Assembly: GCA_013368375.1 (NCBI GenBank)
Contig: JAACJP010000015.1
Location: forward strand, 1-64,000
Length of the DNA: 64,000 nucleotides
Direction of reading: 5' to 3'
Origin: Tricholomella constricta
Lineage: Eukaryota; Basidiomycota; Agaricomycetes; Agaricales; Lyophyllaceae
Of the stretch, positions 28,146 to 60,044 are shown one piece after another; within the stretch, counting starts at the first letter, position 1; every line of letters starts with the position of its first letter. The notes beneath the pieces are model-generated. The model did no database searches and was not told where the DNA came from. It saw only the letters and a program-made list of their open reading frames with translations. A program made the translations under genes and the position numbers.

Positions 28146-28392
28146 GTTTCAAAAACCACCGCCGAACACGCGACCTCCTAAAAAAAAAGCTTCCACCTGC
28201 AACCAGACAAGAAGCTCGAACCCGAACCCTTCGCACAATAATGGTGGCAGCATTGTACAACAATGACTCCTTGACATCGATCGGGGAGAAAATACAATAA
28301 CAGCAGAATGAAGTGGCCTGTGCGCGGTGACACATGGAACAAGAGAACAAGGCACGTTTCTGGCCACAACGAGAACAAGGGACCTCACGCTC

Positions 28393-28583
28393 TGTAAGGA
28401 CGCAGGTCCATACTGGTCACCTGTGTTGGCATTGTTTGGCAACGCCGAATTGCCTATATCTATTGTTTATATCTATTAGTTTAAGTAGATCTTCGCAACT
28501 TCATGTATAACTAGCAGAAAAATGACATCTGGTCAAGCTCGGTTATAGTGTGAATTGCGAGGTCGTCCTGTAGCACCGCTACA
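28393..28583 (+). repeat. 5' LTR of family A element
   Basis: 191 bp, TGTAAGG ... GCTACA. It differs from the 3' LTR by a few bases and a short indel (GCCGAATTGCC against GCCATTGGCATTGCC), so the insertion is not brand new. Confidence 0.9.
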
Positions 28584-28760
28584 TTTTTTTGAGCTATCCA
28601 GCTCTACTGCTATATACAGCTATATCCCGCTATAACCCACTATCTGCTTCTTTTCTCAACCTGGCCACTCAAACCCCTTTTGGCCAACACCGACATCTTG
28701 ATATGACATCGAGAACCACCCAGGACCATGCAACACGCGCATGGACACATGAGGCCGCGG
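28584..28760 (+). other. Leader of family A element, shared with family D
   Basis: The sequence from TTTTTTGAGCTATCCAGCTC to CACATGAGGCCGCGG is nearly the same as the reverse complement of 58312-58480 and includes the start MTSRTTQDHAT(R/C)AWTHEAA. Similarity stops abruptly after GGCCGCGG, where A and D carry unrelated coding sequence. Confidence 0.85.
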
Positions 28761-31347
28761 ACACGTGGCCACGTCACTCGTCGGAACCGCAGCCTGCGGC
28801 TCGGAGAGGCTTTTCGATGTTCGAAGCATCGAAATTGATGCCACGTCATACGGCAGAACCGCCGGCGACGGTTCCCTCGAGCAAACTCAAGCTGTTCCTA
28901 TAGAACGGCACAGGCGAATCTTTGTCGCCTGTGCATGAAGAGTGGATCGAGCTCGACCTTCTACGGCATGAGCTTCAGTTCTTTTGGTCGGCTACTGGGA
29001 TAACCGGCGAAACTCAGCGACGTAGGCTCGAAGCCTGCGCCGAACACGATGTATCTGAGTATTTTGGACGAATATATATTGATGTAGGACATACAGAGTA
29101 CCTACAACGATACATGGACGCGCTACGTGGTGCGGTCAAGGAACCGCACCGACTAAAAGCGCTACACCTTCCACTTGGGAGGTAAAAATCGAAGCATTCT
29201 GGGCGACGACTGACGTCCAGAGCCAGTACCGGCGTCGGAGGTTGATAGAGGCCACCGAGAAGATATACCGCAAGTACGGTGCCTCATACTGGCACCATAC
29301 GGAGGTCGGCGAATCGTACACAGACAAAACTATAGGAACACTTCGTGATGTCGTGGACCTATACAGGAAGCGGCGTCCGAAGGACGCACACCGAGGAGCG
29401 TCGCAGTTGGGCGATGCAAATACGACAGCGCTACAAGTGCCATCATCGTCGAAACCGGTGGGACCATTGAGTTGTGGTTCTAAGAATGCACGTTCGATTG
29501 AACGTTCGGGTGGCATGAGTACTGCCCCCTTCAAATCGATCGTGAAGTGATCTGAAAGACGCGAGGGCAATGGCCTCGCATCAGTGAACGTCACATATAG
29601 TGGCGGACATGACGACCGCAACTGGCGAGTACCGTCGCCAATGCATGATCAAAGTGTGCGACAGAGGGCACAACCCAGGCATGAGGCCCTCCAACCGGGC
29701 AACATCGAGGGGATCGGTGAGCATCGAAGGATGCTCAAGGAGACACGAACCGAGGCGAACGTCGTAGATCAACGACGTCCTAGTGGGGGGGAGAGGTACC
29801 AGAGCAGTAGCCGCCACCCCACAGACGAGACGATGAAGGAAACGTCGCAGAGCGACGTTTCACGATCCATGGTGCCCAGCAAAGGCGCAACAGTTGCTGG
29901 CAAGAAAGTTGCCAGCAATACAACATCGGAGGTGCCGAATATACGACATTCGGAGGCCGAGATGCGTCGGGAAGGCACAGGGAACGAGCACCGACGGAGT
30001 ATGGTCCGGACAGACCATACTATAGTTGAGGGCATGCGGCAAGGTCGTGCGCATCAAGTCGAACCGCATCTAGAAGGTGTACCAGAGGACAGCAAGCGTC
30101 CTCCCACTAAGCCAATAGAAAGGCTTGCATCAACGCGCTTAGTAGCACGCACTTACTCGTCATCTAGGTATGTTACACCTAGATCCTATAGTGGCGCTAT
30201 GGCCGCCACATCGGCATTGGAGAGCGCCAGCGCTAGCGTGCGCCCTCAACCAGAATGACCACCGGAGCACCCGACAAGAGGTGCTGCCAGCGAAGGCGGA
30301 AACGTGGGCGCACCCCAGATAGAGGGGGTGCACCAGGACGGATCAAGGTATCCGGCACTACCGGAGGTGCGGACAAACGTTCGCAAGGGAGGAGATGGGT
30401 GTGGTGAACGCCCATTGAAGAAGATTGAACGCCATGGGACGACGACCGCAAAGGTGCCGATGCTGGCATACCCGGAGGCGGACTTCCACATTGTGTGGTG
30501 GATAGCACGACGCATAGACGACGGAAGCGACTGGAATGAGACGTTCCAGGAGCTAATGCACGATCGGCCGGAAGACGACGTGCGCCGGGTTTGGAGGTGG
30601 GTGATGTACCACCTCCAGTATCACAGAAAAGAACTCCGTGGGGACACGGGGTTAATGGGCATCAAGCCTGTTCCGGAGACGGCGTCAAGCGCTGAATCCG
30701 ATGGTGGATCTAGTGACCGACCCAGTGAGGTGGGAAGGTCAAGATCGAGTTCGCAAATTGGACAGGAGCGAACACGCACCCCCGACCATGTCCTAGACTG
30801 GCTAGAGGGTAACTCGAGCACCTACTCGCGAAGTATTAGCGCGAGTAGGGACAACTACAACATGGTGGTACCGACACCATCAGAAGTTCGGAACGAAATG
30901 CCCACCAAACGATTGGCGTGTATGCGCCAAATTGTTCATCGCACATATGGCGATGAACCGGAAGAGGAAGACGACGGGAACGGTGAGTGGTCCAAAGGTC
31001 ATTCGGAATGCTCAGAAGCATGGCATGTCCGAACATATGAATGTGAGGACGCATGCCACAAGTACCAGTACCTCGATGAAGACGGGAAGGAAATTCACGT
31101 CTACGAAGTGGAGAGCGATGGAGAATCCAACGCTCTCGAGGCGGAATATGATAGCTACCGAGAACGTGGTAGCTATCAAGAGGAGGAGGAGAGTGGCGCT
31201 GAGCATAGCAGCTCGGAAGACGCTCGTTTTAACGACGAGCAGAAGAATGGTGCTGCACATAGCGGCCCAGAAGACGCTCGTTTGAACAACGAGCAAAGCG
31301 ACGAAAGCGCCCGTTATGATGATAACGAGTGCGCTGACTCCGATTGA
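28703..31347 (+). pseudogene. Degraded ORF of family A element (gag-like or unknown)
   Basis: The frame opens MTSRTTQDHATRAWTHEAAD and continues to 29185 with one TAG (28901). It shifts to another frame near 29187 and continues to 31347 with two TGA codons (29548 and 30256). A module is repeated: FFWSATGITGETQRRRLEA ... YMDALRG and, about 260 bp later, AFWATTDVQSQYRRRRLIEA ... TIGTLRD. The last part (30304-31347) has AYPEADFHIVWWIARRID, WRWVMYHLQYHRKEL and a Glu/Asp/Ser-rich tail. No zinc knuckle or enzymatic motif. The whole frame is threaded with perfect hairpins. Function unknown; capsid-like by position only. Confidence 0.55.
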
Positions 31348-31373
31348 GCGTGTTGGGCTTGTTGTGCCCAACA
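28812..31373 (+). repeat. Series of short perfect hairpins inside the family A ORF
   Basis: Checked stems (outer coordinates, stem length): 28812-28834 8 bp; 28856-28874 6; 28908-28934 10; 29129-29150 8; 29561-29579 6; 29839-29861 10; 29894-29918 10; 29935-29953 6; 29998-30021 9; 30162-30184 8; 30266-30285 6; 30310-30331 7; 30592-30617 9; 30821-30849 10; 30913-30930 6; 30934-30958 9; 31111-31137 7 plus an inner 4; 31149-31178 11; 31222-31240 6; 31276-31294 7; 31312-31327 6; 31351-31373 8. Loops are 3-9 nt apart from the 31111 structure. Neighbouring genes read by eye show nothing comparable. Confidence 0.9.
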
Positions 31374-31640
31374 GTTCCTATCCAGGTCTTTGAGATGCGA
31401 TATTAGACGCATTAGTCCGGCAGCCGTATCGGTTAGGTGTCGACAGTTATAACGTCGAGGTGGCAGCCTACGCGACTTTAACCACAGTCGCAGCAATAAC
31501 CATTGCTGAAACCCTTGTGGCGTATACGTCAGTGTGATAAATAGCGCCTCAGTCTTCTGCGGTAGTTCAACCAGCCCTGGTCCGGCAGGCGCAATAGCTG
31601 TCGACGAGGAGTCGAAGACGGAGCCAAAAAATTGATGAAG

Positions 31641-31861
31641 TGTAACGGAGTTACAAGATTGGGGACCTTGCTGTGCACGCTAGACGTAAGCTTGACAAGT
31701 CTGTCGATTGCTACGTATAGGTGTACAAGGTCTACTGTTTAATTATGTAATGTAGAGGATTAAATAGGCAACACCAGAAGGTGTTGCCAAACAATAGCGT
31801 AATTGTGTCGATAAGATACGATTAGATCAGATTAGTAGATAGGATAGTAAGCGCCCTTACA
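31641..31861 (-). mobile_element. Solo LTR, family B, nested in family A element
   Basis: 221 bp TGTAACGGAGTTACA ... GCGCCCTTACA (minus-oriented), with a perfect 5-bp duplication TGAAG on both sides (31636-31640 and 31862-31866). Nearly the same length and sequence as 33702-33922. It contains the hairpin GGCAACACC-AGAA-GGTGTTGCC. Confidence 0.93.
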
Positions 31862-31930
31862 TGAAGCCATAAATCACCGGCTAACGACTCTATTGGTGAC
31901 TATCAAACCAACTCACGCGCGAAAGTCACT

Positions 31931-32218
31931 GTTGGGCACTATGTGTCCAACCCTAGCCAGTACGTCCGTGGAACATGGACGCCAATCTCTCAGAGACTGG
32001 AGGAACAAGTCGCGGTCGACAGAATCGACACTACGTTAGAGCCATGACCTAACATTATCATTATTCCATATCGTCGGAGTACCAATACCCAGACGCGACA
32101 ACTGTGACGCATAAAATATGCGCAATGCATTCGACTATTGTTGCGCGTACTGTACGCGCAATATATACGACATACCCTCGACATCCGCCTGGGTGTAAAG
32201 ATTGCTGAGTGCAATCTT
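31931..32218 (+). repeat. Hairpin series in the 3' untranslated interior of family A
   Basis: Stems at 31931-31951 (8 bp with one G-T), 31963-31981, 32141-32161 (TTGCGCGT/ACGCGCAA) and 32198-32218 (AAGATTGC/GCAATCTT). The last one sits immediately before the polypurine tract. Confidence 0.85.
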
Positions 32219-32229
32219 AAAGGGGGGTA

Positions 32230-32424
32230 TGTAAGGACGCAGGTCCATACTGGTCACCTGTGTTGGCATTGTTTGGCAACGCCATTGGCATTGCCTATAT
32301 CTATTGTTTATATCTATTAGTTTAAGTAGATCTTCGCAACTTCATGTATAACTAGCAGAAAAATGACATCTGGTCAAGCTCGGTTATAGTGTGAATTGCG
32401 AGGTCGTCCTGTAGCACCGCTACA
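32230..32424 (+). repeat. 3' LTR of family A element
   Basis: 195 bp, preceded by TTAAAGGGGGGTA. It ends GCTACA and is followed by the target duplication CGCTC. Confidence 0.92.
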
Positions 32425-32573
32425 CGCTCGCTGCTATATCTATTGTTTATATCTATTAGTTTAAGTAGATCTTCGCAACTTCATGTATAACTAGCAGAAA
32501 AATGACATCTGGTCAAGCTCGGTTATAGTGTGAATTGCGAGGTCGTCCTGTAGCACCGCTACACGTTCGCTGC
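32296..32573 (+). repeat. 139-bp tandem duplication across the LTR/target junction
   Basis: Unit 32296-32434 comprises the last 129 bp of the family A LTR plus CGCTCGCTGC of flank. Unit 32435-32573 repeats it, with CGTTC in place of CGCTC. The duplication therefore happened after insertion. Confidence 0.9.
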
Positions 32574-32829: not shown

Positions 32830-33701
32830 TTATACTGCGGGGTCAAATTGTAATAGTTGTGTCATATCATAGCAGACGTTCGGTGCTGGATTCAAATGGT
32901 GGAGAAGCGGCAGGGGAGCTTCAAAGCTGAGCACGTCATGAGAAAGACGGCGAGGGACAATAGGCGCGCAGCGGAAGTGATTGAAGAAAGTTTGGGTATA
33001 GTACTTTGCAATGGCTTCCTCCAAACTTTGAACTTCATCAGCCTTCCATCGCCAACTGTTGATGTGGAGGATGGCTGGCTGTTTCCCAGGCCAAGGCCTC
33101 AGGAGCCGCTGAAGTTCTAACAAGGAGCAACAGCGTTCTTCATCATTGTAACTCGTGATGCCATGATTGGCTTCAGACAGTGGTGTGATGAGGAGTTGTC
33201 CTCCGGGAAAGCAATAGTGACACATTGTTCTTCTCACCCAAGATCGAAGTCCGCGGCCCCACAACGGATAAAAATCTGCAATGCGAGCAGCTCCTGGCAA
33301 AAATTGAGCTCTGCCAACTCCCACAAGATCTCCTCGAAGTCCTTGTCCTGAAGATCCCCAAATAATGGTTTGCCCTGCCAAGGTTTGTTACCATGGGCAA
33401 CTTCGCCGATTGAGGCGTTCTCGGTGCTCAAGCAGTTCTGGAGAAAGTCAGACAACAGCTCCAGGCGTGTCGCGCTCTTCGTCTGATGATCCCCTCTCTT
33501 CCTATCGGCGCCGGATGAGCTATTTTGCAGCCAGTCGAGCCCAAGCAAATCCCTCCAAGCCTTCCCAGACATCGGCTGCACATTGGAATTGTTGACACTG
33601 AGGCGATGGATGAGAACCATACGATAACGAAGCCAGGTACGGAGGGTCGATGCACACCGGTCTCGTTTCTCATATGCAATAAACGACGCCGGTTCCGGGA
33701 A
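32830..33701 (-). pseudogene. Broken conserved-looking protein gene, unknown function
   Basis: Minus strand. It reads FPEPASFIAYEKRDRCASTL (cut at its 5' side by the family B LTR), then DKDFEEILWELAELNFCQEL, IRCGAADFDLG, a stop, EEQCVTIAFPEDNSSSHH and IMASRVTMMKNAVAPC. After a frame change near 33125 it continues LLRPWPGKQPAILHINSWRW and EEAIAKYYTQTFFNHFRCAP, ending at 32830. At least one stop and one frameshift are present. The composition (Trp, Cys, balanced charge) looks like a genuine protein, but I do not recognise its family with confidence. Confidence 0.5.
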
Positions 33702-33922
33702 TGTAACGGAGTTACAGAGTTTGGGGACCTTGCTGTTCACGCTAGACGTAAGCTTGACAAGTCTGTCGATTGCTACGTATAGGTGTACAAGGTTGTATAT
33801 ACTTATTTAATGTAATGAATTAAATAGGCAACACCAGAAGGTGTTGCCAAACAATAGCATAATCGTCTCGATAAGATACGATTAGATAACCAATATTAGA
33901 TAAGATAGTGGGCGCCCTTACA
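33702..33922 (-). mobile_element. 3' LTR of family B element (minus strand)
   Basis: 221 bp matching the solo LTR at 31641-31861. On the minus strand the preceding interior ends AAGATC...GATCTT, AAAGGGGGG, TA, the same hairpin, purine tract and LTR order as family A. No matching duplication follows on the right, so the rest of the element is missing. Confidence 0.85.
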
Positions 33923-58311: not shown

Positions 58312-58480
58312 CCGCGGCCTCGTGTGTCCATGCGCATGTCGCATGGTCCTGGGTGGTTCTCGATGTCATATCAAGATGTCGGTGTTGGCCAAAAGGGGTT
58401 TGTATGGCCAGATTAAGAAAAGAAGCAGTTATAGCGGGATATAGCTGTATATAGCAGTAGAGCTGGATAGCTCAAAAAAA
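58312..58480 (-). other. Leader of family D element
   Basis: Reverse complement matches 28584-28760 almost throughout, ending at GAGGCCGCGG; then family D continues TGTCACAACCGCCCC. A short upstream frame (MTSRTTQDHAT...) is shared with family A. Confidence 0.85.
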
Positions 58481-58674
58481 TGTAGCAGTGCTACAGGGGA
58501 TGCCTCGCTGTTCACACTATACGCGAGCTTGACCAGATGTTTTTTCTGCTACGTATACATGAAGTTGCGAGGATCTACTTAAAATAATAGATATAAACAA
58601 TAGATATAGGCAACACTGAAGGCGTTGCCAAACAATGCCAACACAGGTGTCCAGTATGGACCTGCGTCCTTACA
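58481..58674 (-). repeat. 5' LTR of family D element (A-type LTR)
   Basis: 194 bp, reverse complement of TGTAAGGACGCAGG ... GCTACA, with the same hairpin GGCAACACTGAAGGCGTTGCC. The sequence beyond it (GTCCCCCTGTGGCAC, a purine tract on the minus strand) resembles a 3' LTR junction, so another element may have adjoined here. Confidence 0.85.
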
Positions 58675-60044
58675 GTCCCCCTGTGGCACGAACACCTCTG
58701 TAGAGCCCTCTTTATGTCTTGCCTTCTGATCTATTTTCTGTGCATGCTCCCGTCTTCGAGTTCCTGTCCCATGGTGGAGTCAGGTGAGTCTCACATAGTC
58801 CTTATCGTATCCTACCAGTGAGCTGAATCCTTGATGGCCATTGTGAAGACTGGGCAGAGGCCGGGCTGCCGCTCTAAGGGGAGGGAGCGAGTGTTGAGAT
58901 GAAAGTCGGGGGCGTTGGATATCAAGTCTCATTCTGGTAAGCATAGATGTATTCTCAAACTGATATAGATTAATGCTCTTGCAATCTTAGCTTCCTACTC
59001 CAAAACCTTCCCCCCATTTGTCACCCACCAAACTCAGGCGGCACGCCAGTATTTTCATGCCAGAGGTCAACACACTCAGTAGGAATAGTTTAAATTTATT
59101 GTATTCTCAATTATGTCAAGTACTAGCGCGAATGCCTACAATTTTACCAATCTTTCGCAACATTTACTTTACTTTTGAGCAAGACTTTCGAAAGTAAGAC
59201 GTGCTTCCAAAAGCCGATTATACTTTCAGGTACGTCTTTCACGCCTTACACAAGTATAATTCGGCTTGGTCAAGTAAGGTGACTGGGCTTGCCCAAGCCA
59301 CGACGTCTTTTCTGCTTGAGGTCTTTTTTGGCTTTTAAAAGCCACGAAAGCCCCTGGAAAAGACATTGGAGTTTTCCTGATGACTCTACAGGTGAATATA
59401 CAGTCGTTTGACTGCCGCTCAGCATACAAACACTGAGTCTACTATTTACAGATATTCTAATAGTTCCGTGAGGGCAGTGTCTGTACGACCTGCAACGTGT
59501 TTGTAAGTCTGTACGTCTGTATGTCCTGTGTGGGGGGCAGGAGCCTGAGTGCCCCAGTAGTTCAGCCGACACGTCAGAGTTTTCGTGGGAGCGCCCGTGT
59601 TATGTATTTTTTTTTACTTTGTTTCCTTCCGTCTTGAGCAAACAGATGGTTTTATTCGGGCATAACTAGACAGTTTTACCGGTTTTCTGACTTTTCGTGA
59701 TGGTGATTGCAGTCCTTGAGCTTACTTGAGCATCCTATACCTACTATGATTACCGTCTTGCCCTTAACCTATGCAGCATCCTCAGGGTCGCATTTTGCTG
59801 TAAAGGTTGACGGCAATCTTTTGTTCCTGAAGTAAATTCGTCCTGGAGCTCATTTGCGGTCCTAGGTGCGAAGGTGAGATGCAGGATGATCTCTATGATC
59901 ATTGTGCGATTCTCCTCTGGCTGTTCCAAGAATTGACTCTTCGAGATCACACATTTTACTCATTGGGCATGTGGTGTCATCGGCATTACTGGCACTCATA
60001 TGACTCGTCTTGATGGCCCGTCCGGCTTGACAGTTGTTTACCAA
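58675..60044. other. No gene recognised
   Basis: About 1.4 kb without a supported gene. 59990-60044 is shared with 20233-20288 and is probably the 3' flank of the DDE transposon; its terminal repeats were not identified. Confidence 0.4.

Follow-up and report, generated by a model that had tools for sequence, protein, structure and literature searches.

Arrays of perfect hairpins in a non-autonomous retrotransposon of Tricholomella constricta and its likely gag-pol partner: a possible case of selection for a folded RNA genome

Why should a decaying retrotransposon be studded with short and perfect hairpins? The question is raised by a long terminal repeat (LTR) element at positions 28393-32424 of a 64,000-nucleotide stretch of the agaric Tricholomella constricta (GenBank assembly GCA_013368375.1, contig JAACJP010000015.1, positions 1 to 64,000 of the forward strand), the whole of which we call the window. 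The hairpins far exceed chance, recur in the other copies of the family and fill an 11-kb gag-pol element that likely mobilises it. Their arms diverge less than the adjoining sequence between lineages, and the predicted RNA folding energy in both families lies below that of shuffled controls. The explanation we favour, at a probability of roughly one half, is that selection for a folded RNA genome may have been taken to near-perfect hairpins in one clade of elements.

Stems were counted as perfect, non-overlapping Watson-Crick pairings around loops of 3-12 nt, and the 3.6-kb interior of the element was compared with 100 dinucleotide shuffles of itself. The interior holds 39 stems of at least 6 bp (shuffle mean 6.4, maximum 15), 20 of at least 7 bp (mean 1.7, maximum 6), 16 of at least 8 bp (mean 0.40, maximum 3), 10 of at least 9 bp (mean 0.07, maximum 1) and 5 of at least 10 bp, a length attained in none of the shuffles. 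At 8 bp and above, the density is about 40 times the chance rate, and the excess suspected in a preliminary description of the locus is thus far beyond chance; only 15 of the 16 stems are the element's own, because the stem at 31767-31788 sits in an inserted solo LTR. In five open reading frame (ORF) segments of the window and 11-kb elements, 10-18 stems of at least 8 bp stand against 0.34-0.83 in 200 codon-preserving shuffles; since these shuffles fail to reproduce the counts, coding constraint does not create the stems. Chance or base composition as their source is ruled out by the two kinds of shuffle together, a property of the chromosomal region by the profile of the window and by the flanks of the 11-kb copy, and a known RNA family by Rfam, which gives no match at gathering score in the window. 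The neighbourhood had been described as free of comparable hairpins. The contrast is indeed large, but it is not absolute: the two chromoviruses of the window have three stems of at least 8 bp each (1.2 and 1.0 expected), and four other stretches have 0-8 (0.7-2.5 expected).

The window copy is a complete LTR retrotransposon, and its boundaries, as read by eye, agree with those first proposed: the LTRs have TG...CA ends, CGCTC is duplicated on both sides, and AAAGGGGGG precedes the 3' LTR. Comparison with open relatives bears out that its reading frame is broken by three stops (one TAG and two TGA) and a frame change, and shows it as two matching pieces. In the genome (44.1 Mb in 118 contigs) the LTR region has at least 41 matches (40 of 43 candidates scored), and paired LTRs are present in many other copies. 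Twenty genomic regions were extracted, of which 16, together with the window copy, form an alignment of 17 copies with pairwise identities of 78.9-99.8%; L010, L024, L026 and L028 stand outside it, being truncated, covered only in a 5' part or reduced to an LTR. Ten of the 20 extracted copies can be read without a break through about 910 codons, starting at the first ATG. The window copy is therefore a degraded representative of a non-autonomous family that was active until recently. Every aligned copy has between 9 and 18 stems of at least 8 bp; many stems occupy common alignment positions, and others occur in few copies. All five stems named in the preliminary description, one of 11 bp and four of 10 bp, are present as perfect hairpins. 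The features of the window copy are as follows, with the number of aligned copies in which each listed stem is perfect.

28388-28392: target-site duplication CGCTC, left copy (by eye)
28393-28583, plus strand: 5' LTR, 191 bp (by eye and from genome LTR matches)
28703-31347, plus strand: remains of the single ORF, broken by three stops and a frame change; about 910 codons in intact relatives
28908-28934, plus strand: 10-bp perfect hairpin, 15 of 17 copies
29839-29861, plus strand: 10-bp perfect hairpin, 15 of 17 copies
29894-29918, plus strand: 10-bp perfect hairpin, 12 of 17 copies; two of its pairs changed on both sides between lineages
30162-30184, plus strand: 8-bp perfect hairpin, 10 of 17 copies; two of its pairs changed on both sides between lineages, and the loop is switched between TTC and GAA in close relatives
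30592-30617, plus strand: 9-bp perfect hairpin, 16 of 17 copies
30821-30849, plus strand: 10-bp perfect hairpin, 6 of 17 copies
30934-30958, plus strand: 9-bp perfect hairpin, 15 of 17 copies
31149-31178, plus strand: 11-bp perfect hairpin, 13 of 17 copies
31351-31373, plus strand: 8-bp perfect hairpin just 3' of the ORF, 17 of 17 copies
31638-31861, minus strand: solo LTR of the 11-kb family, a later insertion of 96% identity, foreign to the element and with its own hairpin at 31767-31788
32141-32161, plus strand: 9-bp perfect hairpin in the 3' untranslated part, 12 of 17 copies
32198-32218, plus strand: 8-bp perfect hairpin adjoining the polypurine tract, 16 of 17 copies
32219-32227, plus strand: polypurine tract AAAGGGGGG (by eye)
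32230-32424, plus strand: 3' LTR, 195 bp
32425-32429: target-site duplication CGCTC, right copy (by eye)

The product of the 910-codon frame gave no match in a Pfam scan of two copies, gag included, nor in a PDB search, and a protein search found no relative among 7996 scored candidates; its structure model has a mean predicted local distance difference test score (pLDDT) of 33. Within the genome, its residues 165-256 match a longer open frame at 34-40% identity in at least 18 places. Three of these loci were read (L059, L060 and L061), one of them to its far end (L062), and this yielded an 11.0-kb copy on contig C6, from L059:2898 to L062:6008, with 225-bp LTRs that are 99.6% identical. Its first ORF, of 1028 codons, encodes a zinc knuckle and has sub-threshold Pfam matches to gag and to protease (the latter 17.5 bits against a cut-off of 20.3). 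The polymerase frame encodes reverse transcriptase, RNase H and integrase above cut-off and in that order, with a chromodomain match (PF00385, 20.1 bits against 25.1) in the correct place at the integrase end. The element thus shows the Ty3/gypsy order protease-reverse transcriptase-RNase H-integrase, its protease match lying below threshold. The third ORF (999 codons, L062:2409-5405) has no Pfam or PDB match in the copy tested, and a protein search finds relatives in Lyophyllum atratum (62%) and L. shimeji (43%). Two families (L062:2409-5405 and L063:7242-9899) have kept such a long third frame open 3' of pol. With part of the polymerase as query, the genome has at least 80 matches (77 of 848 candidates scored).

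The 11-kb copy carries hairpins from LTR to LTR: 95 perfect stems of at least 7 bp (about 4.9 expected) and 53 of at least 8 bp (about 1.4 expected). No stems occur in the 2.9 kb to its left, and the 2.1 kb to its right hold two of at least 7 bp, one of which reaches 8 bp, so that in the copy examined the hairpins begin and end with the element. In a related subfamily of this element, 83% identical across 1386 bases of its third ORF, arm changes are absent from 8 of 14 stems. The two families have further features in common: an LTR hairpin, with a G-C to A-T exchange, and the stretch TACATTTTTTT(G/A)AGCTA directly after the 5' LTR (window 28584-28600; L059:3123-3140). Together with the common ORF segment (about 37% identity), these suggest that the 11-kb element likely mobilises the window element. 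A tRNA-type TGG after the 5' LTR was seen in neither family, as read from the sequence with no search against tRNAs made, and because it is missing from the expected place in both, priming may be unusual.

Are the stems maintained? We took stems that are perfect in one lineage and compared them between two other lineages, with flanks drawn from within 60 alignment columns. The divergence test used 12 copies in four groups of three, L011 and L022 serving only as extra stem references; the test for two-sided changes used the same 12 copies, and L015, L025 and L027 stood outside both. Between lineages, differences per site amount to 0.0545 in arms, 0.0884 in flanks and 0.102 in loops, which gives an arm/flank ratio of 0.62 (95% confidence interval (CI) 0.46-0.81, bootstrap over 49 stem locations), and the reduction is present at all three codon positions. 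For changes private to single copies in the groups of three, which were presumably mostly made after insertion, the ratio is 1.08 (CI 0.78-1.43). The arms were therefore constrained while the lineages were active, and not afterwards. This establishes a detectable nucleotide-level constraint on the stems; the idea that structure rather than protein is what is kept is not supported by the private ratio and the intact frames in half of the extracted copies. Stems of 8-11 bp offer little target for mutation, and this alone may keep them perfect while a copy decays. The non-autonomous lineages do not diverge evenly along their length: the value is about 0.15 midway through the ORF and 0.01-0.04 in its end and the 3' untranslated part, which looks as if lineages had exchanged pieces by recombination.

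Predicted RNA folding gives a second line of evidence. The ORFs of the hairpin families have mean folding z-scores of -1.74 to -2.80 against codon-preserving shuffles, a comparison that the preliminary description had proposed; against dinucleotide shuffles the families reach -2.73 to -2.89. The window chromoviruses reach -0.19 to -0.69 and -0.70 to -0.73, respectively, and other DNA lies at about 0 against dinucleotide shuffles. A sister family on contig C21 has the same three ORFs as the 11-kb element, with amino-acid identities of 67-72% in the polymerase, 41% in the first ORF and 34% in the third. In its 9.9 kb we find three stems of at least 8 bp (0.8 expected) and 19 of at least 7 bp (4.2 expected). 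Its predicted folding lies at a mean of -1.50 to -2.01 against codon-preserving shuffles, the sense strand being more stable by 0.60-0.87, and at -2.52 (sense) and -1.47 (antisense) against dinucleotide shuffles, a sense gain of about 1.04. Given this excess folding and the surplus of 7-bp stems, the sister family was dropped as a clean negative. Because it folds with a sense bias and has few stems, sense-strand ordered structure likely predates the perfect hairpins, as judged from these two families. Neither the 11-kb gag-pol element with its hairpins nor the sister family with ordered RNA and few stems had been foreseen in the preliminary description.

We return to selection for a folded RNA genome. 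The fold would matter in the RNA of both elements, which would be shared in common particles, and many interchangeable local stem-loops would make this RNA compact, guard it against nucleases or silencing, or aid its packaging by the partner's Gag. Such a situation may be likened to genome-scale ordered RNA structure (GORS), a feature of certain RNA viruses. The stems that selection preserved may first have been made perfect through fold-back copying by reverse transcriptase. A number of observations weigh against selection on RNA. Outside the ORF, where numbers are small, arms (0.016) and flanks (0.020) hardly differ. Covariation, for which compensatory changes across copies had been proposed as a check, is weak and at best suggestive: fixed between groups, we count six two-sided Watson-Crick replacements against 1, 2, 2, 2, 2 and 5 in slid controls. 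Pairwise counts of two-sided change (72 Watson-Crick and 29 other cells, 29.5 expected) were set aside as non-independent and taken from stems picked as perfect in the reference, and were replaced by out-of-pair choice of stems, region-matched flanks and group-fixed states with slid controls. Helices with one flaw do not favour G-U: A-C and G-U stand at 22 and 14 in the 11-kb copy, at 37 and 40 summed over seven non-autonomous copies and at 41 and 35 among states fixed in the non-autonomous family; private changes also lean to A-C (35 vs 22). The hairpin clade folds about equally on both strands (-2.73 vs -2.68 against dinucleotide shuffles), neither strand is consistently favoured when helices are counted with G-U pairs included, and no preference of the stems for a codon phase was found. 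In the 11-kb copy the loops are rich in A (37% vs 28%, a value reached in 0 of 2000 draws), but the enrichment is weaker elsewhere, and in the sister family the loops of 5-bp stems expected by chance are A-rich too. Selection on RNA alone does not explain near-perfect stems on both strands.

What else could generate such stems? One explanation is mutational: the partner's reverse transcriptase would bend the nascent strand back on itself and use one arm of an imperfect hairpin as the template for its counterpart, so that exact inverted repeats of little function build up in whatever it copies. We regard this copying as the main rival of selection on RNA or as a contributor to it, a serious proposal though a rather unlikely one. 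In the 11-kb copy, exact stems are enriched about 38-fold, G-U and A-C one-flaw helices only about 6-fold and 7-fold, as if stems had first been perfected and had decayed later; the two strands fold alike, the stems keep to no codon phase, and the trait occurs in two families that would rely on a common enzyme. The loop within an identical perfect 10-bp stem, near alignment column 1812 (window position about 30162), reads TTC in L018 and GAA in L019 and L021. This switch between near-identical copies, an exact reverse complement, is a clean small inversion. Such copying would pass a change on to the opposite arm as often as it would undo it; it should not by itself lower arm divergence, yet the ratio is 0.62, and it should yield many two-sided changes, of which only the six were seen. 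The other signatures looked for in the aligned copies are scarce. An exact reverse complement turns up in only 1 of 314 comparisons between distinct loops (the controls give two exact reversals and no exact complement). Of 628 hairpin pairs with at least three differences, 30 match better once one member is reverse-complemented, and the divergent copies L027 and L011 take part in about half of these; no convincing templated insertion was found. Arm-by-arm comparison with the sister family did not tell a copied arm apart at a saturated nucleotide identity of 43-65%. The sister family itself, in spite of its similar polymerase, has few such stems yet sense-biased folding. The preliminary description had listed template switching during reverse transcription among the possible origins; no signature of loop inversion or templated insertion bears it out, but the preference for exact pairs over G-U is left unexplained by RNA folding alone. 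An account in which structure and enzyme feed each other, with folding selected over the whole length and the elements' own reverse transcriptase rewriting imperfect pairs to exact ones until both elements become hairpin arrays that fold on either strand, is in our judgement unlikely.

Selection could instead act on DNA hairpins, in single-stranded complementary DNA or as integrated cruciforms, and would then ask for exact pairs on either strand. The lack of a G-U preference, the strand symmetry of the hairpin clade and the constraint on the arms agree with this. The sister family's sense-biased folding points rather to RNA as the older state, the 11-kb copy retains a small sense excess of -0.12 to -0.68 z (codon-preserving shuffles), and we know of no DNA-level role for such a hairpin array; this explanation appears quite improbable. 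It is more improbable still that only a few stems, in the LTR, near the polypurine tract and just after the ORF, are functional and the others are relics drifting from an earlier burst of stems: some stems are indeed almost always present (the one at 31351 in all 17 copies, those at 30592 and 32198 in 16) and others occur in few copies, but the estimate of constraint draws on 49 stem locations, which were themselves the units of the bootstrap, and stems exceed controls in all coding parts tested.

How does the hairpin array relate to systems already described? Ordered RNA structure over whole genomes is known from RNA viruses, and its role is debated. GORS is reported as a property of some positive-strand RNA viruses (PMC3695492, PMC3950689, PMC7642675). 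It resembles our case in a folding energy well below shuffled controls along coding sequence, in its many local structures and in the existence of similar neighbours without it. Over the ORFs tested here, predicted folding energy lies clearly below that of the shuffles. The systems differ in that ours comprises an LTR retrotransposon and a non-autonomous companion, with a structure built mostly from exact, strand-symmetric stems of 7-11 bp. The hairpin array is best called a form of genome-scale ordered RNA structure. For yeast Ty3, the available portion of PMC11381356 describes a Ty3/gypsy RNA structured in scattered coding regions, with a well-folded core largely in or near the reverse transcriptase region; it presents the probed RNA as a mosaic of structured and dynamic regions, describes no perfect-hairpin array and does not contain the term 'covariation'.

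Other retroelements offer partial parallels. TR-GAG elements (PMC8704663) likewise have two LTRs, one long ORF and a full-length candidate elsewhere in the genome that could supply protein; the ORF of the window family differs in lacking a recognisable gag domain and matches only a segment of its partner's first ORF. Helenus and Ajax (PMC10886601) are also non-autonomous LTR elements described by an RNA feature, which there is a small-RNA-like sequence; the window element has instead a distributed array without an Rfam match. With chromovirus-type Ty3/gypsy elements the 11-kb element has in common its zinc knuckle, reverse transcriptase, RNase H and integrase and the sub-threshold matches to protease, gag and chromodomain, all in the expected order; it differs in its third ORF of 999 codons and in its hairpin array, which the window's two gypsy-type elements do not have. 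No comparable array was found in the open-access literature on retrotransposon hairpins and RNA structure, represented mostly by titles and the opening parts of abstracts.

Some further observations concern the surroundings of the element and its copies. Two reversed solo LTRs of the 11-kb family lie in the window, at 31638-31861 (96% identity) and 33700-33922 (90%). Directly 3' of the element, at 32434-32563, there is a partial third LTR of the same family, 100% identical to positions 61-190 of the query element; the site was therefore either a repeated target or has been rearranged. On the minus strand at 58312-58681 lies another remnant of that family, comprising an LTR and some interior at about 90% identity. 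The 3' part of L011 contains about 300 extra bases that end in an A run and are followed by a repeat of the bases at the opposite edge, an insert that looks like retroposed non-LTR sequence. The window also encodes a CxC2 domain, a type linked to KDZ transposases, which like the Lyophyllum relatives of the third ORF would fit an agaric host.

The particular value of this genome is that it offers, side by side, young copies, decayed copies that serve as a neutral control, the 11-kb and the non-autonomous forms, and a sister family without the array of perfect stems. Two questions are thereby made testable: of what use a distributed structure may be to the RNA of a retroelement, whether in packaging, in protection or in escape from silencing, and whether copying by its own reverse transcriptase can push the genome of such an element toward hairpins.

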